64,000 bases of DNA from an uncultured Siphonobacter sp. (GTDB lineage Bacteria > Bacteroidota > Bacteroidia > Cytophagales > Spirosomataceae). Both the position numbers and the translations under genes were made by a program. Shown here piece after piece: positions 38,081 through 54,361 of this stretch; positions within the stretch are counted from its first letter, which is position 1, and every line of letters begins with the position of its first letter. Under the pieces are notes generated by a model, which saw only the letters and a list, made by a program, of their open reading frames with translations, was not told the origin of the DNA and made no database searches. Location of the stretch: the NCBI GenBank assembly GCA_913775095.1, contig CAJYIW010000001.1:116900-180899 (forward strand), given 5' to 3'.

Positions 38081-39421
38081 ATGAATCTACATTTACCCCT
38101 GATTAAGGGCTCTTTCTGGAGTTTTTCCTTCGTTTTCCTTGCATTCCTTGTCATTTCCAGTTGCCGCCCGGATGATTACCCCAAGCGGCAGTTTGCTACC
38201 TGTGACACTCTTGGAGCCGAATTAACGTACACTTCGGATAAGTTAGCCTGCGTGTTTAAGCTAACTTCAGTTACAGGGACGCTGGAATCCATTGAATGGG
38301 ATTTTGGAGATGGAAGCAAGCAGACGGGATTGGAAACGACTGCAAATCATACGTATCTTCAAAACAATAATTATACTGTCAGGGTAACCCTTACGGATAA
38401 ATGCAAGAAAACTGCATTAAAAACAATAAATATAACCGTCCCCAAGCTAACACCTCCAAGTATTGATGCCTTAGCTGCCACAAACATTACTGATCATCAG
38501 GCAACTTTGGGAATACAGCTTACTAATAGAGGACTGCCTGAAGCCACAAGGTATGGTATATGTTATTCTTATTTAAATTCTGATCCTTTTATTGGGGGAC
38601 TAAATGTTTCAGTTGTATTCTTTGATAGTGAAGCAGGTCTAAAATCCATTGAGGGATTACAGGCTAATTCAACGTATTACTATAGAGCATTTGCTATTAG
38701 CTCTACTGATACAGCTTATTCGGTAATGTTAACGTTTAAAACGCTTCATGAAATATCAGAAGGACTGGTAGCCCATTTAACGTTTGACAATGGAGCTTGG
38801 GATGCAACCAGTAATGTGAATCATGGAAAAATTGAGGGAAATAATATTCCTACTGCAGATCATAGGAACCAACCGAATAAAGCTTTATACTTTGATGGGG
38901 CTACCTTCGTGAAAGTACCAGATCATGTTTCACTAAGACCTTCAAAGTTGTCGATTAGCTTTTGGTTTAAAGCTCAGGAATTGCCTAGTCCGTCAAATTT
39001 ATTCATGCAATTTTATTACAAAGCTAACTATGAGCTGGATAACAGTAAGCAGTATAGTTCATCAATAGATTGGAATAACGGAAGCATCAGGTTCAAGGCG
39101 GATGTAATGCAAAACAGTGGCTGTAATCCAAACATTCAATGGATAACGTCACCTAGCAATATTAATCTGACTACTCAATGGTATCATGCTGTAATTGTAT
39201 ATGCTAACAAAAAAATGCTAGTATATATAAATGGCAATAGTACGCCATTCTCTACTTGGGACTTACCTAATGATTCAATCGATAATTGTAGCGGGGGGAG
39301 TCTGAATATCGGAGCACAATCTAAATCTCTTCCTAACTACTTCAGAGGGGCCATGGATGATTTCCGTGTCTACAATATTGCTCTCACTCCGGATCAGGTA
39401 TCAGCACTATATAAACTATAA
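38081..39421 (+). CDS. Lipoprotein with PKD and LamG-like domains
   Basis: 446 residues. The signal peptide ends in a lipobox (VISSC, Cys at about 28), so it is anchored in a membrane. Residues 40-125 are a PKD-type Ig domain (ESIEWDFGDGSKQTG), 127-225 look like a fibronectin-III-like domain, and 228-446 are a LamG/concanavalin-like domain (GLVAHLTFDNGAWDATSN, KLSISFWFKAQ). Such proteins bind glycans or surfaces. It is the first gene of the 12-gene operon, 4 bases before the next start. It is visibly richer in A+T than the rest of the operon, which hints at a later insertion. Confidence 0.85.
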   Translation: MNLHLPLIKGSFWSFSFVFLAFLVISSCRPDDYPKRQFATCDTLGAELTYTSDKLACVFKLTSVTGTLESIEWDFGDGSKQTGLETTANHTYLQNNNYTVRVTLTDKCKKTALKTINITVPKLTPPSIDALAATNITDHQATLGIQLTNRGLPEATRYGICYSYLNSDPFIGGLNVSVVFFDSEAGLKSIEGLQANSTYYYRAFAISSTDTAYSVMLTFKTLHEISEGLVAHLTFDNGAWDATSNVNHGKIEGNNIPTADHRNQPNKALYFDGATFVKVPDHVSLRPSKLSISFWFKAQELPSPSNLFMQFYYKANYELDNSKQYSSSIDWNNGSIRFKADVMQNSGCNPNIQWITSPSNINLTTQWYHAVIVYANKKMLVYINGNSTPFSTWDLPNDSIDNCSGGSLNIGAQSKSLPNYFRGAMDDFRVYNIALTPDQVSALYKL

Positions 39422-39425
39422 TTTC

Positions 39426-40184
39426 ATGTTACCATTTGTACCCAAGTGCCTGATCACTTTATTATTGTTTGTAACGCTTGCAACGGCAAGTAGGGCTCAG
39501 TCGATTATTACCAATATTCGTACCGATTATACTGCTGATCGGATGAAGATTACCTATGATCTGGAAAAAGTAAATCCGGAAGATTCACTTTTCATCAAAG
39601 TGGAAAGCCGAATGAAGGGTACGCTTCCCGTTAAAACGGTAACCGGAGAGGTAGGTAAAAACATGACCGCAGGAACCAATAAGGTAATTTACTGGGACTA
39701 TAAACTGGACGGCATCAAAATTACGGATCATCAGGTGCGTGTACACATTCTGGCCTTGAATTCTGGGGGAATTGGAGAGCCAGGCAGAGGTCCGGCGAGT
39801 GCACTGGCTTCCCTGGTTTTACCCGGCGTTGGAAATATGCTGGTGAATCGTAAGATTGGTCTTCGTCCATTGATTTCCGTATCATACCTTGGATTAATCG
39901 CCTATGGTCTATCCCAGCGTACGAAGGGCAATGAGCAGTTTGCCCTCTATAATCTTCCGGAATTTCAATACAATCCAGAGGCGGCTGAGACCCACTATCA
40001 ACAGGCTAACCAGCATCGCAGACAGTTTTATTACGCAGCTCAGGGAGCTGTCCTGATCCTGGCAGCGGATGTCATTTACAGTGCCGTTAAAGGAACCCAG
40101 AATGCTCGCAAGCGTTCGCAGTCCCAGATTTCTCTTCATTATATCAGCAATACTCCAGCTTTAGCCTATCAATTAACTTTTTAA
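39426..40184 (+). CDS. Exported protein with C-terminal membrane segments, unknown family
   Basis: 252 residues from the ATG at 39426, which begins a signal peptide (LLLFVTLATASRAQS); earlier in-frame starts overlap the previous gene. Residues 25-115 form a beta-sandwich-like part (MKITYDLEKVNPEDSLFIK). After GEPGRGPASALASLVLPGVG come two or three hydrophobic segments (about 125-160 and 210-230). Function unknown. It lies 4 bases from both neighbours, so it is tightly operonic with the lipoprotein and the first caspase-like gene. Confidence 0.75.
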   Translation: MLPFVPKCLITLLLFVTLATASRAQSIITNIRTDYTADRMKITYDLEKVNPEDSLFIKVESRMKGTLPVKTVTGEVGKNMTAGTNKVIYWDYKLDGIKITDHQVRVHILALNSGGIGEPGRGPASALASLVLPGVGNMLVNRKIGLRPLISVSYLGLIAYGLSQRTKGNEQFALYNLPEFQYNPEAAETHYQQANQHRRQFYYAAQGAVLILAADVIYSAVKGTQNARKRSQSQISLHYISNTPALAYQLTF

Positions 40185-40188
40185 GTGT

Positions 40189-41289
40189 ATGAAGAAAATT
40201 CTATTTTTAGGTGTACTGATGCTGGTTCGGCCCTGGCTGGTATCGGCTCAACCCATTCAGGATTTTAAAACGCCCTGGGAAACGCCCAAGATTCCGGAAA
40301 AAGCCCCTGTAATTACCTGGCAGAGTCCATCCGCCGGGGAACTGACGGTTGACAAACCGATTCTCAAGGCAAGCGTTTGCGTTCAGTCCGCTTTGGAATT
40401 GATTCGATACCATTTCGTGGTCAATGGAAAAAAAGTCGGCGGAATTGAACGCGGGTTCCGTAAGCAGACGACATGTGGTCAGGAAATACTCCATGATCTG
40501 ACGCTGGAGGAAGGGAGTAATGAAATCCGTTTCATTGCTGAAAACAAAGCGGGTTCTACGACAACCGAATCGCATTACATCACTTACAGAGCAGGAGGGA
40601 GCCACATTGCCCGCTCAGCTTTGATCCTCGCTAATAATACATACAGCATTCCACTGAAAAACCCCGTTAATGACGGACGGGCTTTACAGAGTCAGCTTAA
40701 AAAGCTGGGATATGAGGTCACACTGGTTGAAAACCAGAACCTGAAAGACTTAAAAACTGCGATTGATAAATACACGGAAAACCTTTCGGATAAAAGCATC
40801 AGCCTGTTTTTCTACGCTGGCCACGGCCTTATGGTGAAACGTGAGAACTACATTGTTCCCACCACCGCTCACATCAAGAGCGAATCGGACGTCGAATACG
40901 AATGTTTTGCTTTATCCAGGCTCGTTGATCGCATGAAAGAGAAAAACCCCAATGGTTCCAATCTGGTACTTTGGGATGCGTGCCGTAATAATCCCTACCG
41001 TTCCTGGACGCGTGGAGTCGAAGGAGCCGTTCATACCAATATCAATCCGCCCGTAGGTACCATGATCATCTATGCCACGGAGCCGGGTAAAACCGCTATT
41101 GATAATGCAGAAGGATCCAACGGATTGTTTACGGGGGAACTCGTTCGTCACATTGAAACGCCTGATATTGACATTTATGAATTGATGCGTCGGATCGACA
41201 AAGGGCTTTCGGATCGCAATACGCCCCAAACCCCTTATCCGGAAGGTACCTTCCGGACGCAGTTCATGTTTAATCCTACGCTGAAATGA
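40189..41289 (+). CDS. Secreted caspase-like peptidase (C14) 1
   Basis: 366 residues. Signal peptide to about residue 21 (WLVSAQP), an Ig-like domain at 35-135 (PVITWQSPSAGELTVDKP), then a caspase domain at about 140-360. The dyad is complete: His212 in FFYAGHG and Cys265 in LWDACRNNP. The start of the p20-like part, ALILANNTYSIPLKNPVNDG, is characteristic. Bacterial caspase-like enzymes cut after basic or acidic residues; specificity here is unknown. Its stop overlaps the next gene by four bases (ATGA). A signal peptide on a caspase implies action in the periplasm or outside. Confidence 0.92.
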   Translation: MKKILFLGVLMLVRPWLVSAQPIQDFKTPWETPKIPEKAPVITWQSPSAGELTVDKPILKASVCVQSALELIRYHFVVNGKKVGGIERGFRKQTTCGQEILHDLTLEEGSNEIRFIAENKAGSTTTESHYITYRAGGSHIARSALILANNTYSIPLKNPVNDGRALQSQLKKLGYEVTLVENQNLKDLKTAIDKYTENLSDKSISLFFYAGHGLMVKRENYIVPTTAHIKSESDVEYECFALSRLVDRMKEKNPNGSNLVLWDACRNNPYRSWTRGVEGAVHTNINPPVGTMIIYATEPGKTAIDNAEGSNGLFTGELVRHIETPDIDIYELMRRIDKGLSDRNTPQTPYPEGTFRTQFMFNPTLK

Positions 41290-42395
41290 GAGGGTCGGGC
41301 TTTATACTGGCTCTTGGCCTTTGGGTCCTCGTGCTGACTGGACAGGCCCAGAGCCTGCACGCCATTCTGGTAGCGGACACGAAAGATCCAATCCTGGCTA
41401 CGGCCTGTGAGCGTGATCTGGAAGTGGTGCATCACCAACTGTCGCAGGCCGCTGCGGCGATGTCTTACGAGCTGAAAGAACAGACCGTTTCCAGGGACCT
41501 TTTTACTGCTCAGCAACTATCGCTGGTGCTAAACAATCTCCAGGTAAAGCCCGAGGATGTGGTCTTCTTTTATTATACGGGTCACGGATATAATCTTCAG
41601 CACCGGCAGGATCTGTTTCCTCTGCTGCATATTCAAAAGAATGAAGCACTCGTGGCTCAAAATCCGGCCCTGCTGGAGATCCATGAAGTCCTTAAAAAGA
41701 AAAAAGCCCGCCTTTGCATTACCCTGGGCGATTGCTGTAATAATCTGTCGCTTAATACCCGGGGCATGATCAGCCGGAAACCCTACATACGCGGGTTGAT
41801 GCTGAATAACGATTCTCTGAATGCGGCGTATCGTAAATTATTTCTGGAGAGTAGGGGGGATGTCCTCATCACCAGTAGTAAGCCCCCCCAAAGTTCATGT
41901 GCTCATCCTGATTCGGGCAGCTACTACACCCGGGCGTTTAACGAAGCCCTGGAACTCGCCAGTCAGTATAACCGAAGCATTACCTGGGAAACGCTGCTGA
42001 AAGATACCCAGCGACGCATGGAACAGCACTCCGCTACTAAAGAAAAAGAATCGGTGTACCGGATCAATCTTCGCACGGAGGAAACCATTGTCAGACAGAA
42101 TCCTGACTTTGAACGGATTAACCAATATTTGAATGCCTTGTCTGACCAGCATCTGCCAGCGAATGAGCGACAGCAGTTGTTAGGTAATCTGAAGGAATAT
42201 TTTACCCATAAGGCCCGGATTGATATCTATGTGAATTCAACACTCGGCGAAGTACAACCCATTGAACAGGTCGTGAAGCGGCTGTATCTGAACGCTGGTA
42301 AAATTCAGCGGATTAATTTAATTGAGCGACTTTCCACGCTTTCTGCTGATGGAAAATATTACCAGCGGGCGGCCATTCAGGAAATTTGGGAGTGA
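41286..42395 (+). CDS. Secreted caspase-like peptidase 2 with a C-terminal module shared in the operon
   Basis: 369 residues. Signal peptide ending at TGQAQ (about 22). Caspase-like domain 24-260 with His100 in YYTGHGYN and Cys150 in LGDCCNN. The first caspase has WDACRNN at this place, so the active-site loop differs. Residues 275-369 (FERINQYLNALSDQHLP, ARIDIYVNSTLG) form a separate module resembling parts of the secreted proteins that follow. It is translationally coupled to caspase 1. Whether it is active or acts as a partner or regulator of caspase 1 cannot be told. Confidence 0.85.
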   Translation: MRGSGFILALGLWVLVLTGQAQSLHAILVADTKDPILATACERDLEVVHHQLSQAAAAMSYELKEQTVSRDLFTAQQLSLVLNNLQVKPEDVVFFYYTGHGYNLQHRQDLFPLLHIQKNEALVAQNPALLEIHEVLKKKKARLCITLGDCCNNLSLNTRGMISRKPYIRGLMLNNDSLNAAYRKLFLESRGDVLITSSKPPQSSCAHPDSGSYYTRAFNEALELASQYNRSITWETLLKDTQRRMEQHSATKEKESVYRINLRTEETIVRQNPDFERINQYLNALSDQHLPANERQQLLGNLKEYFTHKARIDIYVNSTLGEVQPIEQVVKRLYLNAGKIQRINLIERLSTLSADGKYYQRAAIQEIWE

Positions 42396-42457
42396 GTTGA
42401 TAACCTTTTCACAAACTTGCCTATAAGTCCATTGAGAAATGGCTTTTTCCACACCTT

Positions 42458-43081
42458 ATGAAAACTTACCTAGTGTTCCTTTCCGGCCTTTTATTTCTGG
42501 CCTTATCAGCAAAAGCTCAGCAAAAGCCAGTTTCCAAAAATCTGGTGGTGAAGGATGATACTCTGACGGCAGAAAAACTCAGGGACTTTCAGACGCTTAC
42601 CCAACAGAAAGTAACGGAATTTCAGCGGTATCTATCTATTATTTCGGATCCTACCCAGTCGGACGCCATCAGGGAACTAGCCATTGAAAATGCTCAGATG
42701 CTCTTTTTGCCCGATGCCCGAATGCAGGTTGGGATGGTAAAAAAACAGACGCTGGTGAAAGAGTATCCCCTGGCTATTTACCTGCGTCGGTTGAAAAATC
42801 TGGAGAAAAAATATTTCGATGTCTCCATAACCTTTTACGATCTGGCTTTAGTCGGCGACTGGGAAAAAACGCAGGCCGGATACGTAACTACTGCCACGTA
42901 TTTTCAGCATTTCAAGGGCAAAGGTAAAGATGGACGTCTGGCTTACGAAGACAAAACCATCAAGCAACTAGACGTTGATTTACGCAACCGGAAAGACCCT
43001 TTCTACGAAGAACACCGCTGGACCGTTTTTCTGGGCAACATTCGGGTAACGGAGGTGGAGCCTAAAAAGTCAGCTTTGTAG
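42458..43081 (+). CDS. Secreted protein of unknown family (module-only type)
   Basis: 207 residues with a signal peptide (LLFLALSAKAQQ). Residues 40-120 (FQRYLSIISDPTQSDA, DARMQVGMVKKQ) resemble the C-terminal module of caspase-like protein 2, and the rest is beta-rich (FDVSITFYDLALVGDWE), together suggesting an NTF2-like or similar cone fold. No catalytic motif. A 62-base gap precedes it, the largest in the operon, and the next gene starts directly after its stop. Confidence 0.7.
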   Translation: MKTYLVFLSGLLFLALSAKAQQKPVSKNLVVKDDTLTAEKLRDFQTLTQQKVTEFQRYLSIISDPTQSDAIRELAIENAQMLFLPDARMQVGMVKKQTLVKEYPLAIYLRRLKNLEKKYFDVSITFYDLALVGDWEKTQAGYVTTATYFQHFKGKGKDGRLAYEDKTIKQLDVDLRNRKDPFYEEHRWTVFLGNIRVTEVEPKKSAL

Positions 43082-43921
43082 ATGTGGAAATACCTTTGCC
43101 TTTTTCTGGGGCTGTTTCCCAGCGTGACTCAGGCCCAGGAGACGGATTCCCTTTTTTTTCAGGAAAGTAGTCAGTCGGGTACTTCGCTGATCAAACACTA
43201 CCGAAAACCCGCTGAGCCGTTTATGAAAACGCGGCTTCACCTGGTCAGCGATTTTCTGAAAAAATTCAATGATACTACTCTGACGGAAGAGTATCCAACC
43301 GCCGAAACGGCCCGTGCCATTCGACTGGGGGAGCTGTTCAGTCCCACATCACTATCCATCAGGGCTGACCTAAAGAATTCCTTTATAGAAGCGATGGGAC
43401 TGAAGTTACAGGAACAGCCCCAGGAAAATTTATACGCTGAGGTATTGGTACTAGTGCAGACGAAAGGGCAACAGAGAACGCATAAACTTTACCTGAAAAA
43501 GCAGAAAATGAATACCAACTGGTCCTGGCAACTGGTGGGATCAGGGTCCGTTACGGGGCTGGAAAACCAACCTGGCGGGGTAGTAGATTCGACGCAGTTT
43601 ATTCCCCCCAATGCCCACGAGTTAAATTTCATGAGTTTACCTCAGTTATTGCAGAAAGACCTTCGTCCATTCGTTGCTCAGCAGGCGGCTGGTATTCCTG
43701 AATTACAAAGTCTGGTATCCAGCGTATATATCGGGGAGTTAAAACTACTGCAATCCCTGGCGACGACGCTCTATCTGGATACGCGACTGGGGTGGTATCT
43801 GAAGCTTCGCCAGTTCAGTCAGGAGTCGGAATACTCGGGCTGGCTTATTGAGGATCTGCTGAACCAGCCTGAAGCATTGCCGGAACCTCTTCGGAACGTC
43901 CTTCAACTTGATACGAAATGA
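43082..43921 (+). CDS. Secreted protein of unknown family
   Basis: 279 residues; signal peptide (LCLFLGLFPSVTQAQ). The first part (FLKKFNDTTLTEEYP, GELFSPTSLSIRADL) again has the pattern of a helix followed by strands seen in its neighbours, more weakly. The C-terminal third is helical and Leu-rich. No motif of a known enzyme. The start immediately follows the previous stop, and its own stop overlaps the next gene (ATGA). Confidence 0.65.
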   Translation: MWKYLCLFLGLFPSVTQAQETDSLFFQESSQSGTSLIKHYRKPAEPFMKTRLHLVSDFLKKFNDTTLTEEYPTAETARAIRLGELFSPTSLSIRADLKNSFIEAMGLKLQEQPQENLYAEVLVLVQTKGQQRTHKLYLKKQKMNTNWSWQLVGSGSVTGLENQPGGVVDSTQFIPPNAHELNFMSLPQLLQKDLRPFVAQQAAGIPELQSLVSSVYIGELKLLQSLATTLYLDTRLGWYLKLRQFSQESEYSGWLIEDLLNQPEALPEPLRNVLQLDTK

Positions 43922-44886
43922 AAGCAGTACTTTACTTACTGGGCTTACTTCTGGCCTTAACCTCCGCCACAAAGGCTCAGACGGACGGCTCAAGTCAACA
44001 AGCCAAGCAGTTTCTGGCGGAGTATGGGCAGCGGGTCAATCAGTTGAGTCAGAAACCCCTGCCTGAAGGCGTGGCCAGGATACGGGAATGCTTCAGTCAC
44101 GATACGGTACGCATGCCCTCCATTTTATTACCGTTTCCTTTGTATCAGGCATCCCGGGCTGAAGAAACGGTCCATTCCTGGCTTGGTCAGCTACCGAATT
44201 ACTTCTGGGAAGGGTTTACGTATCGTCTCGATACGAGCCATGTGCAGTGCGAAACCTTACCTCATGATAAAAATCAGATCCGGTTCCGACTGATCCTGCC
44301 CGTAGGATTACACGGGTTGACTCAGCGAACACGGAAGCGTCACAGCTATCAGGAAGATCAGGCCTTTATCGTGTCGGCATCCAAAAATGATACCCGCTCC
44401 TGGAAGATCGAAGAGATAAGAGGAACGGGTGAGGGCATCAGAGAAACTCCCATGAATGCCCGACAATTGCTGGATTACCATGAAGAGTTGCAGTCCTCCT
44501 TAATGCAGCTGGTTTTCGAGAAAACATCCGATGAGCATAAACAGAAGTTACTGAAAAAACTAAAGTCATACGTCCCACTGGATGAACGCATTTTTGAATG
44601 GAAGAAATTTCCGGGTAAAAAAATGACTCTTGCAGAAATTGCTGAACTACGCCTTCCGGCCGAAGAGGCGGCTCGCTATCACCTCGATGCCTTTGATTTA
44701 CATTATCAGGGAAATTTTTATCAGGATCGTGACGGAAGCTGGCAGTCGGACGTGATAACCTTACGGGGCATTTCGGTATGGATAGATGGAAAGCTGAATT
44801 ACCAGAACCGACAAACGGATACGATTCCCGGTGAGCCTCCTTTCCAGGAAAAAATCAGTCTGACGTATTTAGCTTTTACTTTATAA
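43918..44886 (+). CDS. Secreted protein of unknown family, probably two repeated modules
   Basis: 322 residues; signal peptide (LLLALTSATKAQT). Two similar halves can be read: YGQRVNQLSQKPLPEGVARI followed by a beta-rich part, and YHEELQSSLMQLVFEKTSD with LKSYVPLDERIFEWKK followed by strands (HLDAFDLHYQGNFYQ). This is compatible with a duplicated module of the kind seen at the C-terminus of caspase-like protein 2. No enzymatic motif. It overlaps its neighbours by 4 and 1 bases. Confidence 0.65.
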   Translation: MKAVLYLLGLLLALTSATKAQTDGSSQQAKQFLAEYGQRVNQLSQKPLPEGVARIRECFSHDTVRMPSILLPFPLYQASRAEETVHSWLGQLPNYFWEGFTYRLDTSHVQCETLPHDKNQIRFRLILPVGLHGLTQRTRKRHSYQEDQAFIVSASKNDTRSWKIEEIRGTGEGIRETPMNARQLLDYHEELQSSLMQLVFEKTSDEHKQKLLKKLKSYVPLDERIFEWKKFPGKKMTLAEIAELRLPAEEAARYHLDAFDLHYQGNFYQDRDGSWQSDVITLRGISVWIDGKLNYQNRQTDTIPGEPPFQEKISLTYLAFTL

Positions 44887-45416
44887 TGCCCCTTACTACA
44901 AAATTTATATTCTGGCTTCTCTTCCCTATAGCCCTGCAAGCTCAGCAGAAAGAGGTCATTCACTGGCCGATTGATTCAAAACTGGACTCATTGATGAAGG
45001 TGCTCAACTATCCTGTACTTACCAAGGGCGTTGCCCTGCAGCAGACCCGGAAGCAATGCGAAATGCTGTTCGCTCCAACCGGGTATATTGTGCTGGTACG
45101 ATCCAATCAGTCAGAAAAGTGGATTCCGGCCTCGCAATTTTTAGCCAGTCGTGCCCCCGGAAGTCGATATGAGCTGGAATCAGCAAAGGTTATTCATTTC
45201 CAGAATGTCAAAAAGATAAAAGAAGGCGAATACACCAGTCAGGCTACCATTTATTTTGATGTCAGGCATTTTGATGAACATATTCCGGTTACTAAAAGTG
45301 TCTCAAAAGTAACGATTCCTTTTACGAAAGTGCCGCCTGCTACGGACTACTGGCAGATTTACGAACTTCGATTGACAGAAACCAGCAGTCGGCCGTCTGC
45401 AAGCCCCCATCCCTGA
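44886..45416 (+). CDS. Small secreted protein of unknown family
   Basis: 176 residues; signal peptide (FWLLFPIALQAQQ). Residues 35-160 form one module (RKQCEMLFAPTGYIVLVRSN, then TIYFDVRHFDEHIPV) like those of the previous genes. Its first base is the last base of the previous stop codon (TAATG). The papain-like gene follows after 8 bases. Confidence 0.65.
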   Translation: MPLTTKFIFWLLFPIALQAQQKEVIHWPIDSKLDSLMKVLNYPVLTKGVALQQTRKQCEMLFAPTGYIVLVRSNQSEKWIPASQFLASRAPGSRYELESAKVIHFQNVKKIKEGEYTSQATIYFDVRHFDEHIPVTKSVSKVTIPFTKVPPATDYWQIYELRLTETSSRPSASPHP

Positions 45417-45424
45417 TCAACTTT

Positions 45425-46855
45425 ATGAAAAAAACCTTTACTATTCTGCTAATTTTTGCGGGAATTATACACGCTGCGATGGCCCAGAAATCGTATCCAC
45501 GGGGTCTGGTATTTGATGATGAAGCCTACGAGAAAATGCCGATGAAAGCGGTATTGACCAAGGGGAGTTATGACAATCTGGAAAAACAGATTTCCTACGA
45601 ACGTTATTGCCCGCCCGTCATGGATCAGGCCCGGTATCAAACCTGCGTAGGCTTTGCCAGTACGTATTACATGCGATCCATCCTCGAAAAAATCAGCCGG
45701 AAGCAATCCCCAGGGACGGCGGTTGCTTTTTCACCGAGTTATACCTACGACAAAATCAAACAGATTTCGGATCTTGAATGCCAGCAGGGAAGTAGCCTGA
45801 TGGATGCCCTGTATAGTTTAAAAACGGCTGGAGCTCCCTTGTACGAAGACTTTCCGTATCCTAATTGCGGAACCATCAGTATGGAATTGGATCAGCAGGC
45901 CTCGGCTCACCGCATCGGAGATGTGATCCGCTTATTTGGCCTATTGGCTCCGGCAGAACTGAAGATCAAGTCCCTTAAAAAAGCATTGAGCGACGGCTAT
46001 CCGGTTGTTATTGGTATGCGAACGCCCCTGTCTTTTTTTGCCACTCAGCAGGTGTGGCAGCCAGCTCCCGGCGATGAACATACGCCGCTGGAAGGCACCG
46101 GCCACGCTCTGTGCGTCATTGGATACGATGACAGCAAATTTGGCGGAGCCTTTCGCGTCGTGAACAGCTGGGGTAACCAGTGGGCAGAAGAGGGCTTTTG
46201 CTGGGTACGTTATCAGGACATGGCTCGCTATACCTACCATGCCTTTCAGGCCTTTCCCGATTTTAATGCTCCGGTGCCGGTTGCAAAAGTCGAGAACCTG
46301 AAGGGGAAGCTGAACCTGCAACTTCGGGAGGGTTCTTTGATGCCGTCAAGTCAGCTATTGCAGAAAGGCCTGGTGGTCAGCAATGATCATCCACGGGATA
46401 TCATGATGTATCAGTTGTCGGAAAGCTATTCTGCCGGAACCGCTTTCAAGGCTTTCATTACTGCCAGTGAATCCGCTTACGTGTATATGATTGGTACCGA
46501 CACTACGTTTCAGATGAATGCTCTGTTTCCTTATACTGCTGGAGTGAGTCCTCTGCTGGGTCCCCATACGACCGTTGCTTACCCTTCCGACAACAAATCT
46601 ATAACGCTGGATCAGGCCAGTGGAACCGACTACCTGATTGTTCTTTTTTCCAGAAAGCCTCTGGCCTTTTCCCAGATTCTTCAGCAATTGCAGCAACGTT
46701 CCGGCGATCTTTCCACGCGACTGACGGCGGTCCTGAAAGAAGATCTCATTCCGGGTCAATCCATCCGCTATCAACCCAATGAACCTGCTTTTGAGGTAAA
46801 GTCCGGGGCTTCTGGTTCTGTTGTACCTCTGGTGGTAGCCATTGAACACCGGTAA
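45425..46855 (+). CDS. Secreted papain-like (C1A) cysteine peptidase 1
   Basis: 476 residues; signal peptide to about 20 (IIHAAMAQK). The catalytic set is complete: oxyanion Gln68 and Cys74 in MDQARYQTCVGFAS, His227 in GHALCVIGYDD, Asn247 in VVNSWGNQWAEEGF. Peptidase domain about 45-285. The C-terminal 190 residues resemble the surface-sensing or scaffold domain of other operon members (YQLSESYSAGTAFKAFITAS, then YPSDNKSITLD) and look DUF4384-like. A paralogue with the same N-terminal DDEAYE phrase sits at the far end of the locus. It is 3 bases upstream of the next gene. Confidence 0.92.
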   Translation: MKKTFTILLIFAGIIHAAMAQKSYPRGLVFDDEAYEKMPMKAVLTKGSYDNLEKQISYERYCPPVMDQARYQTCVGFASTYYMRSILEKISRKQSPGTAVAFSPSYTYDKIKQISDLECQQGSSLMDALYSLKTAGAPLYEDFPYPNCGTISMELDQQASAHRIGDVIRLFGLLAPAELKIKSLKKALSDGYPVVIGMRTPLSFFATQQVWQPAPGDEHTPLEGTGHALCVIGYDDSKFGGAFRVVNSWGNQWAEEGFCWVRYQDMARYTYHAFQAFPDFNAPVPVAKVENLKGKLNLQLREGSLMPSSQLLQKGLVVSNDHPRDIMMYQLSESYSAGTAFKAFITASESAYVYMIGTDTTFQMNALFPYTAGVSPLLGPHTTVAYPSDNKSITLDQASGTDYLIVLFSRKPLAFSQILQQLQQRSGDLSTRLTAVLKEDLIPGQSIRYQPNEPAFEVKSGASGSVVPLVVAIEHR

Positions 46856-46858
46856 GTT

Positions 46859-48346
46859 ATGCGAACGTTTTTGTTAGTAATCAATCTGATCTGGCTCTTC
46901 CTGCAAACGGGAAGAGCTCAGACTTTTTCGGCTCAGGAGCAGGAGATTATTATTGCCAATGCCCGTAAACTACTGGATACCGGGTATCTGCAAAATCTGG
47001 AAATATTGACCCATTATGAAGTTAATCAACCCTTTGAAGCTCTGGACCCGCAGTTGAAGGCATTTGTAAAATCAGCATTTCGGGATGCGGATGTGCAGGT
47101 GTTCAACGAATTTCGTGAACCTCTGGGAACGCTTACCTCTATTGAAGAATACATCAAAGATTGCCACATTTTTTTTAAACAAAAACCCATCATCAATACG
47201 CTGGACTGGACCCAGGCCCGGTATCAGTTTCATCACACCCCGGATCAAAAGCCTTACCTCAACGTGTACGTAATCAAGAAGATGCAGGGGATTGAGAAAA
47301 AATCCCAGAATTACGCAAACGTAGTGGAGTGCCGGATTTACTTTGCTCAGAACGAACGATTGAAATCCTTTTATGACTTCAGAATTGCGGGAATTACCCG
47401 AGCTGAAAAGTATCCGGCGGGAGCTTTTACCCAGTCAGATTTAAAGCCGGAGGAAAAAACCAATGATCTGTTTTCGGCACTGGATACGCTGACTGCTCAA
47501 CTACAGGAGCGGATTGCGGGAACCACTCCGGAGCTGATCCTGGAACGGTTCACTTATCGGAACTGCGGAGTCAACGACGCCCTTTCCGACCAGATGTTTG
47601 CTACGCTGAATGCCTGTCTGCAACGCCGGGTGAAGATACCTATCCGTTCCGTAGCCGAGGATGCCAGTACCTCTCCGGTGATTCGGGGTTTTTATGAAGA
47701 ACAAGGAAATTACTTACGAATTCGGGTAGAATTACGGGAATCAGGCAGTGGCAAACTGGTAAAAACGCTGGAAAATACGAGCCTGCCGCTGCAATGGTTA
47801 CAGGAGCAGAATATTTCCGTAATTCCGGATAATTACCAGGAAGTAAAGGTCGTGCAGGATACCCTGCGACAGATCACCGCTGTGACACCGCCTTCGGTAT
47901 TAAAAATTGAAATCCGCACCGACCGTGGCAGAACGGGCGTCGAATACTGGGCGGGACAGCAAATGATGCTGGAAGCAAAAGCGAATCGCCCCTGCCACAT
48001 TCGATTGCTGTACCGATTAGCCGATGGTACGCAGACGCTGCTGGAAAACGATTTTGTCATACGACCCGGTCAGGAAAACAAGCTGGTGCGTATTGCCCCT
48101 GAAGCTTCATTCATCTGCTCGGCTCCTTTCGGCACGGAATACCTGCTGGCTTATGCCTCTGAACAGCCCTTCTGCCCCCTGCCCACCCGCCCTAACCGGG
48201 AAGGATACTTCAGACAGGAAGGTGATTATCAGATATACGTAGGCTCACTGGCCGTTTTCAATACGCTGATGAAATGCTCAAAAAGCGGAGGAATCACCGA
48301 AGATCATATTCAGATTACCACGCGTGAAGCAAGTAGTACGAAATAA
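46859..48346 (+). CDS. Secreted protein with C-terminal DUF4384-like domain
   Basis: 495 residues; signal peptide (LFLQTGRAQT). Residues 30-170 contain the operon-shared type of module (FVKSAFRDADVQVFNE, TSIEEYIKDCHIFFKQ). The C-terminal 130 residues (VEYWAGQQMMLEAKANRPC, HIRLLYRLADGTQTLL) look like DUF4384, a beta-domain often fused to kinases, caspases and other signalling proteins. The middle part (TLRQITAVTPPSVLKI) is a linker. It may be a structural adaptor for the peptidases. A 27-base gap separates it from the tubulin-like gene. Confidence 0.7.
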   Translation: MRTFLLVINLIWLFLQTGRAQTFSAQEQEIIIANARKLLDTGYLQNLEILTHYEVNQPFEALDPQLKAFVKSAFRDADVQVFNEFREPLGTLTSIEEYIKDCHIFFKQKPIINTLDWTQARYQFHHTPDQKPYLNVYVIKKMQGIEKKSQNYANVVECRIYFAQNERLKSFYDFRIAGITRAEKYPAGAFTQSDLKPEEKTNDLFSALDTLTAQLQERIAGTTPELILERFTYRNCGVNDALSDQMFATLNACLQRRVKIPIRSVAEDASTSPVIRGFYEEQGNYLRIRVELRESGSGKLVKTLENTSLPLQWLQEQNISVIPDNYQEVKVVQDTLRQITAVTPPSVLKIEIRTDRGRTGVEYWAGQQMMLEAKANRPCHIRLLYRLADGTQTLLENDFVIRPGQENKLVRIAPEASFICSAPFGTEYLLAYASEQPFCPLPTRPNREGYFRQEGDYQIYVGSLAVFNTLMKCSKSGGITEDHIQITTREASSTK

Positions 48347-48373
48347 TTCAAAAATTAACCCCCATTTCCAGTT

Positions 48374-51300
48374 ATGGAAAATCATTTACTCATCGTTGCC
48401 GGAGGAACCGGAGGAAAAATAGTAAGGGCTTACAAAAAACTGGTATATCAGCAATTTCGTAATGATTCCCCTAAAAACATTGAATACCTATACATTGACT
48501 CCAGCCGTGATGAATGGAATAAGGATTCGGAATGGGAAGTTCTGGGAGATTCCATTGCCCTGGGTAACAGTAACTTTCTGGAGTTACAATCGCAGGGGCT
48601 GGCTGAGAAATTTCAGGAAATTGAGCAATATCCGGGCGTAAAGGAATTCATTGGTGAAAAGCAGCAATGGATCGACCTGATGAACAACGCTCAGGGACAG
48701 AAAACGGCGGGGATGCAGCGTCGGCGGATGGGGCGAATTCTTTTTGCCAGTAATGCCAGTAATTTCAATAAAGCATTAGCCGATCGGGTCCAGAAACTTC
48801 GTCAGGAAACCAATCAGACCGACGTCACCTTTCACGTCTGTGCTGGCCTGGCGGGTGGAACGGGTAGTGGTTCAATCATCGATATTATCACCCAGATTCG
48901 GAATCAGTTTCCAGCCAGCAACAATTCTTTCCGGATTCTGCTGTATGTCTACTTGCCCGAGGACGTAAGCAACTGGAACACGCCCCTGGATTTCTATCAT
49001 GCCAATGGATATGCCGCCCTTACCGAATTAAACGCTCTGAGTACAGGAGCTTTGAAGCCCTTTGATGTAACGGGAGAAAAAGGTCAGCTGGACGTTCAGA
49101 CGCCTTTTACGGGTTGTTATGTGTTTACCAATCAGAACGAAAATGGGGTTACCGTTGATAAAGAAACCGAACTGCCCGCCATTGTCGCGGATTTTCTGTA
49201 TCAGAAAACGGTTGCGTTAAAGGTAATTACCTCTGAGCTGGAGCGACTGGAAAACGGGGAAAACGGAGATCCATCCCCGGAGATGCTGAAGGGAAGCAAA
49301 GTGGGCGAGCGGAGCAAGCGTTTCCTGAGTTTTGGCATTAAAAGAATTGCTATTCCCGAACAGGAAATTAAAGAATACCTGACGTTTAATCTGGCCCGTC
49401 AGGCAGCCTTGCAATTACGTTTTAACAATTGGACGGATGCGGCTGGCTTTGTAGAAGAACCCCGAAATATGGGCTTCAACGAATACGTTCAACAGAAGGA
49501 TAAACTTCAGGGCTGGCACCTGACGCTCAACCACTTGATGTTATCCGAACCCGTTCTGATTGATGAAAGCAGTAAGCGGTGGAAGAAATTTGAAAACCAC
49601 TGGAATGATAAAATAGACTTCTTCAAGCCACTGGCCCTGGAAAAAGACAAGAAAGAATGGGTCGACGCCCTTAAGATGCTTATCAGCCGGGAGTTCGACG
49701 AAGATTTCCGTAAGTCAGGGGGCGTGAATCGGTTTTTCGAAGCCAAACGTAAAGACAAGCGGGACATGGCCCGTGAAATCCGTAAACGCATTGAAGCCGA
49801 GTTTTTCGGAGAGTGGAGAAATGGTGATTTATCCATTTCGGATTTGAGTCGAAAACTGAATGCTCTGCTGGATTTCCTGCGAACGGATGTGACACGTCAG
49901 ATTAATGAGAAAATTGAGTCATATCACCGTCTGGAAGAAAAGGCTAAAGCAGATGTACGTGAATTAGACAAAGAATGGGCTCAGATGGGCGTTATAGGCA
50001 AATGGTTTGGCAAACGTAGTGAGCTGTTTGATACCCAGAGGCTGGCCCTTCAGGACGAATACATCATCCGTACTCAACTACGGGGAGCTCAGTTTGCCCG
50101 GGAGTTCATGCCCGAAATTCTGGAGCAACTGGAATTATTTAATCAGGAGTTAACTCAGGCGGGGGCAACGATTAATGAAGGAATCCTTTTGTTCGAAAAA
50201 AATATTAACTCTCGCTGTGAAGACGCGGACTGGATTACTCAGCCCGAGCAAATTCAAAAGGATGTCTTTAAACAGCAACTTATTCCTTTTTATGAGTCGA
50301 CTCAGGTAAAGCAGTCCGTTCGGTTTTTCAATCATGACAGTAAAATACAAAACCAGCAGACGGCAAAAGTACGCGAAGCTATAACGAAAGTGCTCGGCGA
50401 GGATCGCATGAACTTTGCTGATTTTAACAGCAGGCTCTCCAAACACGCCTTTGCCACTGAGCTGGAAAAAGTTTGTTTGCAAAATGCTCTGATTTTGGAG
50501 AAGGATCAAAGCAAACAGGATCGTTTGCTGGGAATGAGTGTAATTGAAAAACTGCAACGCCATTACCAGGACAATACGCAGGAATTGCGATCACTGGTGG
50601 GTCAGCTGATGCGTTTTGCCGGATGTTATGTAGAATTCAATCCCAATGAAGTAACTAAAGCCGGTGATGGCTTTTCTACCGGAGCGGTTTCCCGAACATT
50701 GTTGATCATTCTGCCTCAGAATTCAACGGCTCAGTATCCGCAATTCGTTGAACAGTTGAAACAGGCCTTTGAGTTTAACAAAGATTCTCAGGTATCGCTG
50801 AAATTCCTCGAAGCCGATGCCAATGAATACCAGATTACGCTGATGACCATTACGAGTCTGTTTCCTCTTCGTTACTTATCCAGTACAGACCGTTTGCGGG
50901 AAAAATACCAGTTACGCCTTCAGAAATCCGATGGCGAAAAAGCCCGCATGCTGCTTCACCTGCAAAACGATAGCGGAAAGCTTCCCAAACTCTTTGCCGC
51001 TACGCAACAGGAACGGGAAGGCGAGTTACTGGATCAGCAGAAGCGAGCCATTCCTCAGCTGTTATTAGGGTACGCCATGGGGAAGATTAAACTTACAAAA
51101 AATGAAGACGGCTATACAAAACTGGCCTTAATCGAACTCAACCGTTTTGATGATGAAGAGCCGGTAGTGTGGATGGATCCGTCCTTACCTAAAGCCTGGA
51201 AAAGTTTATCTTCGGATGAGCTGGATAAGCTAAACGTATCAATAGATCAGGAAGTAAAGGTTAATTTTCGGCATAAGGAAAAGAAAGCGGAGCTGGTGAC

Positions 51301-51415
51301 GAATATCGTAAAAACCATGAAAGGCTTACAGGCTGAGCACGCCGGAACTCCGGAATATAAGCTCCTGAGTGATGCCGGTAAACAACTGATAGAAACCCTG
51401 GAAAAAGAAGCCTGA
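48374..51415 (+). CDS. Large tubulin/FtsZ-like GTPase (Tubulin_2 type)
   Basis: 1013 residues without signal peptide, so cytoplasmic. The N-terminal Rossmann strand LLIVAGGTGGKIVRAYKKL and the tubulin signature AGLAGGTGSGSIID (about 157-170) place it in the tubulin superfamily; YLYIDSSRDEWN and LYVYLPEDVSNWN fit the sugar- and base-contacting loops. The GTPase part covers about 1-350. Residues 380-720 are highly charged and predicted coiled coil (EKIESYHRLEEKAKADVREL). The C-terminal 250 residues are globular and unassigned. Large members of this family have been proposed to act in membrane remodelling. It is followed after 2 bases by a membrane zinc-ribbon protein that may recruit it. Confidence 0.85.
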   Translation: MENHLLIVAGGTGGKIVRAYKKLVYQQFRNDSPKNIEYLYIDSSRDEWNKDSEWEVLGDSIALGNSNFLELQSQGLAEKFQEIEQYPGVKEFIGEKQQWIDLMNNAQGQKTAGMQRRRMGRILFASNASNFNKALADRVQKLRQETNQTDVTFHVCAGLAGGTGSGSIIDIITQIRNQFPASNNSFRILLYVYLPEDVSNWNTPLDFYHANGYAALTELNALSTGALKPFDVTGEKGQLDVQTPFTGCYVFTNQNENGVTVDKETELPAIVADFLYQKTVALKVITSELERLENGENGDPSPEMLKGSKVGERSKRFLSFGIKRIAIPEQEIKEYLTFNLARQAALQLRFNNWTDAAGFVEEPRNMGFNEYVQQKDKLQGWHLTLNHLMLSEPVLIDESSKRWKKFENHWNDKIDFFKPLALEKDKKEWVDALKMLISREFDEDFRKSGGVNRFFEAKRKDKRDMAREIRKRIEAEFFGEWRNGDLSISDLSRKLNALLDFLRTDVTRQINEKIESYHRLEEKAKADVRELDKEWAQMGVIGKWFGKRSELFDTQRLALQDEYIIRTQLRGAQFAREFMPEILEQLELFNQELTQAGATINEGILLFEKNINSRCEDADWITQPEQIQKDVFKQQLIPFYESTQVKQSVRFFNHDSKIQNQQTAKVREAITKVLGEDRMNFADFNSRLSKHAFATELEKVCLQNALILEKDQSKQDRLLGMSVIEKLQRHYQDNTQELRSLVGQLMRFAGCYVEFNPNEVTKAGDGFSTGAVSRTLLIILPQNSTAQYPQFVEQLKQAFEFNKDSQVSLKFLEADANEYQITLMTITSLFPLRYLSSTDRLREKYQLRLQKSDGEKARMLLHLQNDSGKLPKLFAATQQEREGELLDQQKRAIPQLLLGYAMGKIKLTKNEDGYTKLALIELNRFDDEEPVVWMDPSLPKAWKSLSSDELDKLNVSIDQEVKVNFRHKEKKAELVTNIVKTMKGLQAEHAGTPEYKLLSDAGKQLIETLEKEA

Positions 51416-51417
51416 TC

Positions 51418-51975
51418 ATGACCCGTTACGGAAAATGTACCAATATTGAAGACTGCCCGAAAGCTAAATCGGGAGAAGTGATTGTTATAAACGGAACAAA
51501 GGAATTTATCTGTCCTTCGTGCCACGAGCCTTTGTTTGAAGTATCGGCTCCAAAACTAAAACGACCCGTTTGGCAGAAAGCGGCCCTGATTACCGCTGGC
51601 GTTCTGGCTTTAGCTGGAGCGGCGGCATGGATGTTAAACTACCCACGTAAACCTGGAGACCCTATAGGAGATTGTGACAGCAGTTGTGTGACCGTTGAAG
51701 GATCTTCAGGTACAGATAGCGTATATAATTATGAACCCCCTGAGAAGGTGGTAGCCACCAAAGGCACTACCATCAAAAACAGTGAATACTGTGTAGATTG
51801 TGAGTCGTTCTATCTGGTTGCGGATGGCAAGGGAGGAACCGAAATCAGGACGGAGGGCTACAACACCAGATGTTGTAAATGCGGCTCCAAAGTTGCGTTC
51901 AAAGATGGGTATTACTACAACATCATTTGCGAAGATGACCGCATCAAAGCCGTAATGGCAGAGAAAGTCGAGTAA
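51418..51975 (+). CDS. Zinc-ribbon protein with a single membrane helix
   Basis: 185 residues. N-terminal zinc ribbon C-x5-C ... C-x2-C (GKCTNIEDCPKA and FICPSCHEPLF, residues 7-43), one membrane helix at about 58-78 (KAALITAGVLALAGAAAW) and a C-terminal part with further Cys pairs (YCVDCESF, TRCCKCGSK), probably a second ribbon. Positive residues before the helix put the first ribbon in the cytoplasm, next to the tubulin-like GTPase encoded 2 bases upstream. A membrane anchor or adaptor linking that GTPase to the exported proteins is a reasonable inference. Last gene of the operon. Confidence 0.75.
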   Translation: MTRYGKCTNIEDCPKAKSGEVIVINGTKEFICPSCHEPLFEVSAPKLKRPVWQKAALITAGVLALAGAAAWMLNYPRKPGDPIGDCDSSCVTVEGSSGTDSVYNYEPPEKVVATKGTTIKNSEYCVDCESFYLVADGKGGTEIRTEGYNTRCCKCGSKVAFKDGYYYNIICEDDRIKAVMAEKVE

Positions 51976-52066: not shown

Positions 52067-52909
52067 TTACCCCTCATTCACCACAAAGCCATACCGCACA
52101 AAGCGGGCCATGTCCCGGTAGGTGATCCAGCAGAAGCCCTGGTCGGCCCAGGTTTTGCCGAAGCTGTTGATAACCCGGAAAGCTCCCCCAAACTGGTGAT
52201 CATCGTAACCGATGATGCAAAGGGCGTGACCTTTCAGCTCCTTATTTTTCGGGTCATCGCCGGGAGCGGGTTGCCAGACTTTCTTGGTGTAGTAAAAAGA
52301 GGCAGGAATGACCATTCCAATGACGACCGGACTACCCGCGGCCAGGGACTGCCTCATGGAAAGGAGCTTGGTTGATTCCGGATCCTGAACTTTAAAAATC
52401 CGCTCATATCCTTTGATTCGGAATCGATTCGCAATGGGATCGACTTTAGCCGTTTTTTCACCGCAGGCCGGGTACGGGAAATGTTGCCAGGACGTATTTC
52501 CCACCTGCTGCATCAGCTGCAGTACTTTGGCCAGATATACCCCCTGTGAGCAGTTGTAATCACCATCCAGCTTGGCCTTTTCGTAAAGATAACCCGGTGA
52601 AAAAGCAATTTTTGTAATGGCCACCGGATTTTTCAGCCCTCTCCGTTTAGCTTCCAGAATGGTTTGCAGGTAATAACCGCAGGCAAAACTCACACAGGTG
52701 CTGAAAGGTCCCTGAGCCTGAACGGCTGGACAATACGATTCGAAGCTGATACGGGAGGGTAGGGGAGCTTTGGTTAGTACCTGCTCAAAGGGTAATTGCT
52801 CATACGCTTCATCGTCCAGCAGCATTCCCGTTTGGGGAAGGGGTTGAGCTAATAATTTACTGGAGATCAGAATGACGAGTCCGATGAATCCGAAACGTAA
52901 AAAAGGCAT
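52067..52909 (-). CDS. Secreted papain-like (C1A) cysteine peptidase 2
   Basis: 280 residues; signal peptide (IGLVILISSKLLAQP). Catalytic residues: Gln66 and Cys72 in QAQGPFSTCVSFACG, His228 in KGHALCIIGYDD, Asn248 in RVINSFGKTWADQGF. It is a clear paralogue of peptidase 1 (DDEAYE at the N-terminus, WQPAPGDD before the His, GAFRV before the Asn) but lacks its 190-residue C-terminal extension. It is the last gene of the sigma/anti-sigma operon and overlaps the anti-sigma gene by one base. A role in signal processing for that sigma factor is possible. Confidence 0.92.
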   Translation of the reverse strand: MPFLRFGFIGLVILISSKLLAQPLPQTGMLLDDEAYEQLPFEQVLTKAPLPSRISFESYCPAVQAQGPFSTCVSFACGYYLQTILEAKRRGLKNPVAITKIAFSPGYLYEKAKLDGDYNCSQGVYLAKVLQLMQQVGNTSWQHFPYPACGEKTAKVDPIANRFRIKGYERIFKVQDPESTKLLSMRQSLAAGSPVVIGMVIPASFYYTKKVWQPAPGDDPKNKELKGHALCIIGYDDHQFGGAFRVINSFGKTWADQGFCWITYRDMARFVRYGFVVNEG

Positions 52910-53685
52910 TACTTGCTTTCATTTTTAAGTAGCTCACTACTTAACTGCTGAGCTTCAGACTGGTAAGGATGTCCACTTTGGTTTTCAATGGTTTGTAACA
53001 ACGTACGGGCCTGATCGGGTTGACTATTTTTCAGATACGCCAGAGCGAGGTACCACTGAGCAGAAGCGTCCCAATGATTACGCACCTCCTCAGTCAGACT
53101 GCGTAATTCCGTAATTGCCTGCCGGGTTTGATCTTTTTCCAGCAACTGCAAAGCCTGATAAAGCTGTACCGAATCACGGGTGGTCTGGCTTTCTTCATTA
53201 CTGGCTCCCAACAGGTCCGGATCGTCTTCTGCCACAGGAGTTAACTTGACGGGTTTACTCATAAAACGCTCGGCTAACTGCTCGCCAGGCGTCGCACCGG
53301 ATCCATTGAATTGGGGCGTTTGCCATACAAACCAGCCTGTTCCCAGAAGAATGACCAGACTGGCCGCCACCGCGAGAGGATACCAGCGATTACGTTTGAG
53401 CGTGGGCGTAACCGGAAAATCGATGACCTGAGGGTCGGGCTTTGCCAACGCTGGAGAAGGCTGGGACAGCTGGCCCTGTTCCGTTAATTGCTGGTGAATC
53501 TGGCGGAACTTATCCTTGGTAGCCAGTACCTCAAAACCTTTTTTTAATTCCTTCTGCAACAATACTTCCTGACGTAGCTCAGGGTTCTGCTGAACCTGAT
53601 GTTCAAAACGCTGACGTTCGGATTCAGACATCTGATTCGTTAGATATGCTCCTATCTGGGCAATAATATCTTCTGTAAGTTCCAT
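52909..53685 (-). CDS. Membrane anti-sigma-like protein with periplasmic TPR-like domain
   Basis: 258 residues. The cytoplasmic N-terminus (IIAQIGAYLTNQMSESERQ, then a charged helical segment to about 60) looks like an anti-sigma domain without the zinc motif. One membrane helix lies at about 102-122 (WYPLAVAASLVILLGTGWFV). The periplasmic C-terminus (170-255) has TPR-like helix pairs (HWDASAQWYLALAYLKNSQ, PDQARTLLQTIENQ). It sits 4 bases after the sigma factor gene, the standard order for a cognate pair. The TPR part could sense a partner or unfolded protein. Confidence 0.8.
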   Translation of the reverse strand: MELTEDIIAQIGAYLTNQMSESERQRFEHQVQQNPELRQEVLLQKELKKGFEVLATKDKFRQIHQQLTEQGQLSQPSPALAKPDPQVIDFPVTPTLKRNRWYPLAVAASLVILLGTGWFVWQTPQFNGSGATPGEQLAERFMSKPVKLTPVAEDDPDLLGASNEESQTTRDSVQLYQALQLLEKDQTRQAITELRSLTEEVRNHWDASAQWYLALAYLKNSQPDQARTLLQTIENQSGHPYQSEAQQLSSELLKNESK

Positions 53686-53689
53686 AACC

Positions 53690-54361
53690 TTATTTTTTAC
53701 GATACATAAAATATAAATCTTTCAATCGCTGAAAGCAGCGGAAGCGTTTCACTTTAGCAGAGCCTTCCTGAATACCCAGCAACTGACCGCATTCGGCAAG
53801 GGATTTTTCCTGAACGTAGAAGTAGTCCATCAAAAGCTGGCAATTGCGTCCGATTTCCTTACGAGCCCGTTCCAGGGCTTCATAGTCAGCGTCCTGCTCT
53901 TCGTCACCCCAGATGCTTTGCACATCCGCTATTTCTGGTTCTGAGTGATGTTCATCGTATTCATGTTCATCAATCAGATCAATCACCATTTCCTCTTCTT
54001 CAGCGGAAGGCTCCTGATATGATTTAAGATGAACGCTTTTGTTTTTGCGAAGTCGGGTTAACCATTGACGGTGGCAGATGGCACTCGCATAAGCCACGAT
54101 GGATTTTCCCTGAAAAACAAATTTTCCGTCCCTCAGATTAACAATACAGATGGACAGACCTTCCTGAAGAAGATCGTAGGCATCGTCAGTCGAGAGAGCA
54201 CTTTTGCTCAAAGTCTGAGGAATGAAGGAATCACTTACTCTACGATAGAGCATTTCCCAGGCTTTGGGATCTTCGGCGAGTAGAGCGTAATAGAACGATT
54301 CTTCTTCAAGGAAACGGGGATCATTCGGTTTCGATGAACGGGAAGGTTGATAATCGGGCAT
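53690..54361 (-). CDS. ECF-like RNA polymerase sigma factor
   Basis: 223 residues. Region 2 at about 25-105 (AWEMLYRRVSDSFIPQ, DLLQEGLSICIVNLRDGKF) and region 4 at about 155-215 (GRNCQLLMDYFYVQEKSL, AECGQLLGIQEGSAKVKRF), joined by an unusually acidic linker (SAEEEEMVIDLIDEHEYDE). It should direct transcription of a small regulon; the adjacent operons are natural candidates. First gene of a three-gene operon with an anti-sigma-like protein and a papain-like peptidase. No autoregulated promoter motif could be defined by eye. Confidence 0.87.
   Translation of the reverse strand: MPDYQPSRSSKPNDPRFLEEESFYYALLAEDPKAWEMLYRRVSDSFIPQTLSKSALSTDDAYDLLQEGLSICIVNLRDGKFVFQGKSIVAYASAICHRQWLTRLRKNKSVHLKSYQEPSAEEEEMVIDLIDEHEYDEHHSEPEIADVQSIWGDEEQDADYEALERARKEIGRNCQLLMDYFYVQEKSLAECGQLLGIQEGSAKVKRFRCFQRLKDLYFMYRKK

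Follow-up and report, generated by a model that had tools for sequence, protein, structure and literature searches.

An exported caspase- and papain-like protease cluster conserved in Siphonobacter, beside a sigma factor operon and with a probably optional FtsZl1 tubulin-like gene

In a 64,000-nucleotide stretch of DNA from an uncultured Siphonobacter sp. (contig CAJYIW010000001.1, positions 116,900 to 180,899; hereafter the window), twelve plus-strand open reading frames (ORFs) spanning positions 38081–51975 converge on three minus-strand ORFs at 52067–54361 (Table 1). The plus-strand run encodes a lipoprotein, two caspase-like peptidases, a papain-like peptidase, a set of further exported proteins, the tubulin-like GTPase Tub, and the zinc-ribbon protein Znr, and the minus-strand operon encodes a sigma factor, an anti-sigma-like protein, and a second papain. 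Gaps along the twelve-gene run are −65, 4, −4, 62, 0, −4, −1, 8, 3, 27, and 2 nucleotides (nt), of which the 65-nt overlap hinges on the start assigned to the second gene, tm275, and becomes a gap of 4 nt if an ATG at 39426 is used. This layout agrees with the gene placement in the first-pass annotation of the window, which listed eleven of the twelve plus-strand genes and omitted tm275.

Table 1. Features of the protease and tubulin locus, in window coordinates.
Feature	Description	Position	Strand	Basis
lipo	lipoprotein, PKD + Laminin_G_3 (ConA-like)	38081..39421	+	Pfam; lipobox ISSC, residues 25-28
tm275	exported/membrane protein, below Pfam cut-off throughout	39357..40184	+	conserved casp1 neighbour in 4 relatives
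casp1	exported caspase-like peptidase PF00656, dyad GHG/DAC	40189..41289	+	Pfam, motif pattern
casp2	exported caspase-like peptidase PF00656, dyad GHG/DCC, C-terminal domain related to e207	41286..42395	+	Pfam, motif pattern, hhalign 93.3%
TGATAACCTTT	promoter-like element in casp2-e207 gap	42398..42408	+	identical to element upstream of sig
e207	exported single-domain protein, predicted NTF2-like fold	42458..43081	+	
e279	exported protein without family assignment	43082..43921	+	Pfam, comparison with relatives
e322	exported protein related to e495 N-terminus	43918..44886	+	hhalign 95.4% vs e495 N-terminus, 53.3% vs e207
e176	exported protein related to e207	44886..45416	+	hhalign 91.8%
papA	exported papain-like peptidase (C1), C-terminal DUF4384	45425..46855	+	Pfam, motif pattern
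e495	exported protein, e207-like N-terminal domain + C-terminal DUF4384	46859..48346	+	Pfam, hhalign
tub	1013-residue FtsZl1/Tubulin_2 GTPase, GGTGGK + GLAGGTGSGS motifs	48374..51415	+	Pfam, alignment, predicted model
znr	cytoplasmic zinc ribbon, one transmembrane helix (55-73), periplasmic CxxC/CCxC domain	51418..51975	+	hydropathy; usual FtsZl1 neighbour
papB	exported papain-like peptidase without DUF4384	52067..52909	-	Pfam, motif pattern
anti	anti-sigma-like membrane protein, transmembrane helix 103-121, periplasmic TPR	52909..53685	-	Pfam, NCBIfam, hydropathy
sig	ECF-type sigma factor	53690..54361	-	TIGR02937, 48.0 bits
TGATAACCTTT	element upstream of sig; likewise in relatives G060, G072, G020	54486..54496	-	

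Pfam assigns the caspase family PF00656 to the products of genes 3 and 4, Casp1 (100.6 bits) and Casp2 (39 bits; cut-off 21.4), and the papain family PF00112 to PapA and PapB (36.6 and 33.9 bits; cut-off 20.7). DUF4384 is found in the products of genes 9 (papA) and 10 (e495) at 39.9 and 27.6 bits, respectively (cut-off 27). The catalytic residues noted at first pass were confirmed as intact by pattern search in all four proteases, with GHG...DAC in Casp1, GHG...DCC in Casp2, and Cys, His, and Asn in PapA and PapB. Exported N-termini, the lipobox of gene 1, and transmembrane (TM) helices were assigned throughout by our own hydropathy estimate rather than by a dedicated predictor, and on this basis Casp1, Casp2, PapA, and PapB look exported. 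The model for EACC1-associated caspases, NF047832, gives 43.9 and 42.8 bits for the two caspases, below its cut-off of 140.

The lipoprotein encoded by gene 1 carries Laminin_G_3 and PKD domains. Five other products of the cluster had been described as exported proteins of unknown family; hydropathy bears out their export, and their kinship was understated, as most of the unassigned exported proteins appear from profile comparison to have one domain in common, predicted to be NTF2-like and also fused to Casp2. E279 reaches at best 43% in hhalign; the profiles behind this value and those in Table 1 contained signal peptides, and some scores may be raised. In two sister genomes (L077 and L078), neither blastp nor tblastn detects e322, and at its place between e279 and e176 just a short TGATAACCTTA stretch like that of e322 remains.

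The protease cluster recurs within the genus. Among six Siphonobacter genomes, including the one under study, casp2 and papA are each present in five and tub in one, and close relatives of PapA and E207 are from Siphonobacter. The order lipo-tm275-casp1-casp2-e207-(e279)-(e322)-e176-papA-e495-znr // papB-anti-(sig) is retained in four of the other genomes (bracketed genes are absent from one or two of them). In three of the four, the genes flanking the cluster on both sides match those of the window. The remaining genome, G083, lacks tub, papA, and casp2. Because the only two PF00656 matches in the whole window genome are Casp1 and Casp2 and the gene order recurs in four relatives, the locus goes beyond a chance assembly. 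Across the family, PapA has matches in 99 of 222 genomes at E ≤ 1e-10. We inspected 16 papain loci from other genera of the family, one per genome and hand-picked for variety among the better matches, in which local profiles identify a caspase in 10 (one of them, in L094, without His-Cys motifs by pattern), e207 and e495 in 7 each, sig in 5, and anti in 4; a PapA-like papain with DUF4384 stands alone in 6 (L080, L082, and L084–L087). By the same profiles tub and znr are each found in 0 of the 16 loci, and no genome-wide search for znr was made. Without its tubulin-like gene, the conserved neighbourhood that the first-pass annotation had proposed to look for is present in four of the five other genus genomes and, more loosely, in other genera. 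Its notion of a single apparatus is partly supported, by the conservation of the protease genes, and is not supported for tub, which is missing from the four relatives and from all 16 papain loci. The conserved exported protease cluster is likely the core of the locus, and tubulin an optional module.

Two of the papain loci have features of their own. L090 shows a local caspase expansion, with nine caspase-profile ORFs, one of them without either catalytic motif by pattern, around papA, e207, e495, sigma, and anti-sigma genes. In L082 (5941–11101), the one locus scanned for this feature, a gene for TssN of type VI secretion ends ∼2.8 kb upstream of the papain.

Sig is recognized as a sigma factor by NCBIfam TIGR02937 (48.0 bits; cut-off 42.9), with Pfam Sigma70_r4 (15.4 bits; cut-off 24.1) and the other Pfam sigma models falling below their cut-offs, and its gene adjoins that for the one-TM protein Anti, which has a weak anti-sigma match (NF052375, 39.1 bits; cut-off 100). 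In envelope-stress pairs of the extracytoplasmic function (ECF) type, such as SigmaE-RseA, the sigma gene likewise adjoins that for a one-TM anti-sigma with a periplasmic domain; the operon described here differs in adding the exported papain PapB. The sequence TGATAACCTTT that precedes sig is found again in the gap between casp2 and e207, where it is exact in the window, has one mismatch in G060, and is missing from G072 and G020. The neighbouring ECF sigma/anti-sigma pair probably controls the protease cluster. If the TGATAACCTTT element is real, the sigma-dependent unit would run from e207 to znr and would not include the caspase genes. On its other side the sigma operon is flanked, at 54633–55805 on the minus strand, by a gene for a DACNV sensor domain protein with a weak DisA/DAC match, which also occurs in three relatives and is possibly a nucleotide-signalling neighbour.

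The N-terminal part of Tub matches Tubulin_2 (PF13809) at 188.3 bits (cut-off 27), and in an alignment of 50 sequences its GTP-binding glycine loop is invariant at Gly10, Gly11, Thr12, Gly13, Lys15, Gly158–Gly164, and Gly166. The predicted model contains a complete tubulin fold with a helical insertion of ∼400 residues (about 350–770), including long helices at 451–612, and C-terminal helices at 938–1011. Because the C-terminal piece has no sequence match to Pfam FtsZ_C or Tubulin_C, assignment of this domain depends on the predicted model; the T7 NxDxxD motif was not found in Tub. FtsZl1 proteins are widespread, with at least 2329 relatives identified at E ≤ 0.001 among 7996 candidates scored. 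A profile search of solved structures with FtsZl1 returned nothing below E 0.02, with tubulin beta as the best match (E 0.025), and no functional study of FtsZl1 proteins turned up in the open-access literature searched. Tub is sparsely distributed, in 7 of 222 family genomes (its own included) and 4 of 390 in an order sample. We did not adopt a mobile-element or phage origin for tub: phages gave no match, none of the 92 viral-contig stretches that matched a pattern encodes a Tub relative, and the GC content of the gene is 0.458 against 0.482 for the window. A plasmid search gave one distant match (30%, Paraburkholderia). In Spirosoma telluris (L025, the same place as G531; 9974–12990), FtsZl1 is represented by two overlapping ORFs in different frames, reflecting either decay or an assembly error.

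The usual neighbour of tub is the zinc-ribbon protein, which follows it in 12 of the 15 tub loci tallied (the window included; L030 and L032 were not part of the tally) and occurs in the Bacteroidota, Methylacidiphilum, deltaproteobacterial, and Paraburkholderia loci fetched. It was not seen in L027, L031, or the cut contig L023; these gene maps were built with a longest-ORF picker, under which short genes can hide beneath longer antisense ORFs. The Methylacidiphilum version of the zinc-ribbon protein (L021) has PBP_like_2 and OmpA domains fused to it, and the deltaproteobacterial protein clusters with this version, which would fit a link from cytoplasm to envelope. The Paraburkholderia protein (L103) has TPRs, and a DUF4384 protein is encoded just upstream of tub; a local profile had suggested a papain there, where Pfam shows DUF4384 only, and this papain was not counted. 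The second partner, C1, is a membrane protein of ∼254 residues encoded before tub in all six other tub-bearing genomes of the family. A search with controls did not find it in any of the six genus genomes, the window's included, nor in G867, a genome from another family of the class, where an ORF of 224 residues unmatched by the C1 query occupies its position. In the joined locus of G105 (L018 and L019, joined positions 4842–14943), the FtsZl1 locus is convergent to and directly adjoins a division cluster containing ORFs that, as judged by eye, resemble MurG, MurC, FtsA, and FtsZ.

In the four tub-less relatives, znr comes immediately after e495 (gaps of 36, 15, 15, and 3 nt), and no remnant of tub or C1 is detected by tblastn at this junction. 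A tree of the locus from casp1, e207, e495, and tm275 unites the window with G060 (support 100), joined by G072 and G020 (87), with Telluribacter (G042) and G046 outside in an order supported at 48; single-gene trees disagree on the placement of both. This topology would need tub to have been lost about three times, or gained twice at one junction. We prefer loss because znr persists in tub-less relatives yet elsewhere, among the loci fetched, appears only beside tub. The pattern suggests that a C1-tub-znr module was once present in the genus and is now eroding; a separate gain of tub in the window genome is the less favoured alternative. The zinc ribbon itself is gone from Znr in G072 and G020 and kept in G060 and G046, and we rejected a simple co-dependence of the ribbon on Tub, since it is retained in two tub-less genomes and lost in two sister genomes.

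Tubulin is accompanied by caspases in two or more separate lineages, and beyond this genome the association holds in part. Telluribacter (G042, locus L020) has the order lipo-tm275-casp-e207-e279-e495-C1-tub-znr, with neither papain nor sigma operon found within the 29 kb fetched. In G867 (L118), an operon divergent from tub-znr encodes a caspase (PF00656, 61.5 bits), a zf-HC2 anti-sigma factor, a DUF4384 protein, a relative of Tm275 (local profile, E 9e-6), and a protein with a weak sigma match (PF08281, 16.1 bits, below the cut-off of 25.7). This caspase is the sole one in its genome and lies ∼6 kb from tub; a caspase would land within 10 kb by chance with a probability of ∼0.004 for a single locus and ∼0.03 over the 8 loci inspected. 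A PF13809 scan of 395 genomes of the phylum gave 13 matches, 10 of them above the cut-off, and 8 of the 9 other above-cut-off loci were fetched: by local profiles the tub-znr pair is present in two (L116 and L118) and a caspase in one (L118), and the remaining six, some of them cut by contig ends, have a weak or no tub-profile match and no znr. A caspase suggested by local profile in the Bacteroidaceae tub locus L031 was not counted, Pfam showing PEGA and FGE-sulfatase domains. In a Runella metagenome-assembled genome (L023, 571–1972, minus strand), local profiles place a sigma/anti-sigma pair ∼5 kb from C1-tub at a contig end, which could be chance because such pairs are common.

The two halves of the locus have each been described separately. 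The FtsZl1 family, its coiled-coil, and its OmpA and von Willebrand factor A (vWA) domain neighbours are known from an earlier study (Makarova and Koonin, 2010; PMC2875224). Tub resembles that family in its length of ∼1000 residues, its central coiled-coil, its membrane and OmpA-type neighbours, and its Pfam Tubulin_2 domain, and differs in that vWA partners, frequent there if not universal, are unmatched by Pfam among the 20 window proteins scanned. It further differs in its neighbouring exported caspases, papains, and sigma operon; the accessible text contains none of the words caspase, protease, peptidase, sigma, or zinc. The tubulin-type C-terminal domain of the predicted model was undetectable by sequence in that study, and FtsZl1 proteins were again described as lacking the Pfam FtsZ_C and Tubulin_C domains in 2023 (PMC9871819). 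Metacaspase operons with sigma-70 genes are known, for example in Myxococcus xanthus (Asplund-Samuelsson et al., 2012; PMC3501461), and share with the present locus a caspase homologue, a sigma factor, and the frequent N-terminal signal peptide or TM helix; OmpA occurs in 14 such operons, and one metacaspase lies beside mreBCD in Alcanivorax. The metacaspase-operon section of that article does not mention papains or NTF2-like accessory proteins, which the window locus has, and its accessible text does not contain the word tubulin. EACC1-associated systems (NF047832; PMC8195603) have the caspase fold in common with Casp1 and Casp2; they are cytosolic, whereas the window caspases are apparently exported, their partner domains are unmatched, and the model scores below cut-off. 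The earlier statement that no described system with this set was known is too strong, as both halves are in print (PMC2875224, PMC3501461); we did not meet the joint caspase, papain, sigma, and tubulin set in the open-access literature searched.

We tentatively favour, at close to even expectation, a reading in which the locus is a sigma-controlled exported protease cluster with an optional FtsZl1 protein, predicted to polymerise, that would position the proteases via the zinc-ribbon protein. An envelope signal would cause the anti-sigma factor to be cleaved or released, perhaps by PapB, a candidate because papB shares the operon with anti. The freed sigma factor would activate, via two putative TGATAACC sites, both the sigma operon and the unit from e207 to znr. 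In the periplasm, NTF2-like and DUF4384 proteins may form a scaffold holding the caspases and papains, which would process or dismantle envelope and surface proteins, and FtsZl1 may polymerise beneath the inner membrane, bound to the cytoplasmic zinc ribbon, to set the place of proteolysis. A trans-envelope apparatus, as conceived at first pass, is plausible. The specific form in which an FtsZl1 filament steers a periplasmic caspase/papain scaffold via the zinc-ribbon TM protein under a dedicated sigma switch we regard as distinctly unlikely to hold in full.

An exact TGATAACCTTT match in the casp2-e207 gap would arise by chance with a probability of ∼1.5e-5 (∼1.3e-4 when all non-coding bases of the operon are considered), figures that apply to a motif chosen after it had been noticed. 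If one mismatch is tolerated, a third TGATAACCTTT site appears in the window, within e322, and three sites are reached in 15 of 100 shuffles. We rejected a genome-wide TGATAACCTTTC regulon, for which 7 sites compare with 0 for the reversed control, but 5 of the 7 lie inside ORFs. The cluster is kept without tub in four genus relatives, and the tub cluster is free of caspases in five of the eight tub-bearing genomes examined, one of them (G118) with tub at a contig end and part of its surroundings unseen; G105 has no caspase at all, and that of G107 lies ∼13 kb off on the other strand. Larkinella and Spirosoma also have mostly different accessory genes next to tub. These distributions speak for two unrelated units, a sigma-run exported protease cluster and a Tub that acts elsewhere in the cell and shares transcription only. 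We consider this explanation somewhat unlikely: tub is embedded in the operon, 27 and 2 nt from its neighbours, proteins of the E207 and E495 types occur in caspase loci as well as in the Larkinella and Spirosoma tub loci that have no caspase, and in the distant genome G867 the caspase, DUF4384 protein, zf-HC2 anti-sigma factor, and Tm275 relative are again near tub.

Developmental or programmed lysis, in which exported caspases and papains under sigma control would digest the envelope of the cell itself or of its neighbours, draws on the catalytic motifs of the exported proteases and on the surface or fratricidal role suggested for the metacaspase-sigma-70 operons of Myxococcus and relatives (PMC3501461). 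It is improbable, as Pfam recognizes no lysozyme, amidase, or holin among the 15 genes, several of which have no match to any family, and no immunity gene was recognized at the locus. Least probable is the defence role raised at first pass, in which infection would trigger the sigma factor or filament and the caspases would kill the cell: caspases and papain-like effectors are generally known from bacterial conflict systems (PMC8195603) and tub is patchy in the family, but the generic PADLOC caspase model gives only 22–23 bits with the other seven proteins scanned unmatched, NF047832 is far below its cut-off, the proteases look exported, the window genome and three relatives have the identical chromosomal site, and Tub relatives were not found in phages or viral contigs.

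The complete tubulin fold with its insertion, as predicted, would bear on whether FtsZl1 forms canonical protofilaments. One genus in which the cluster occupies a shared chromosomal site with or without tubulin, and in which the output of the exported proteases can be measured, offers a natural test bed.

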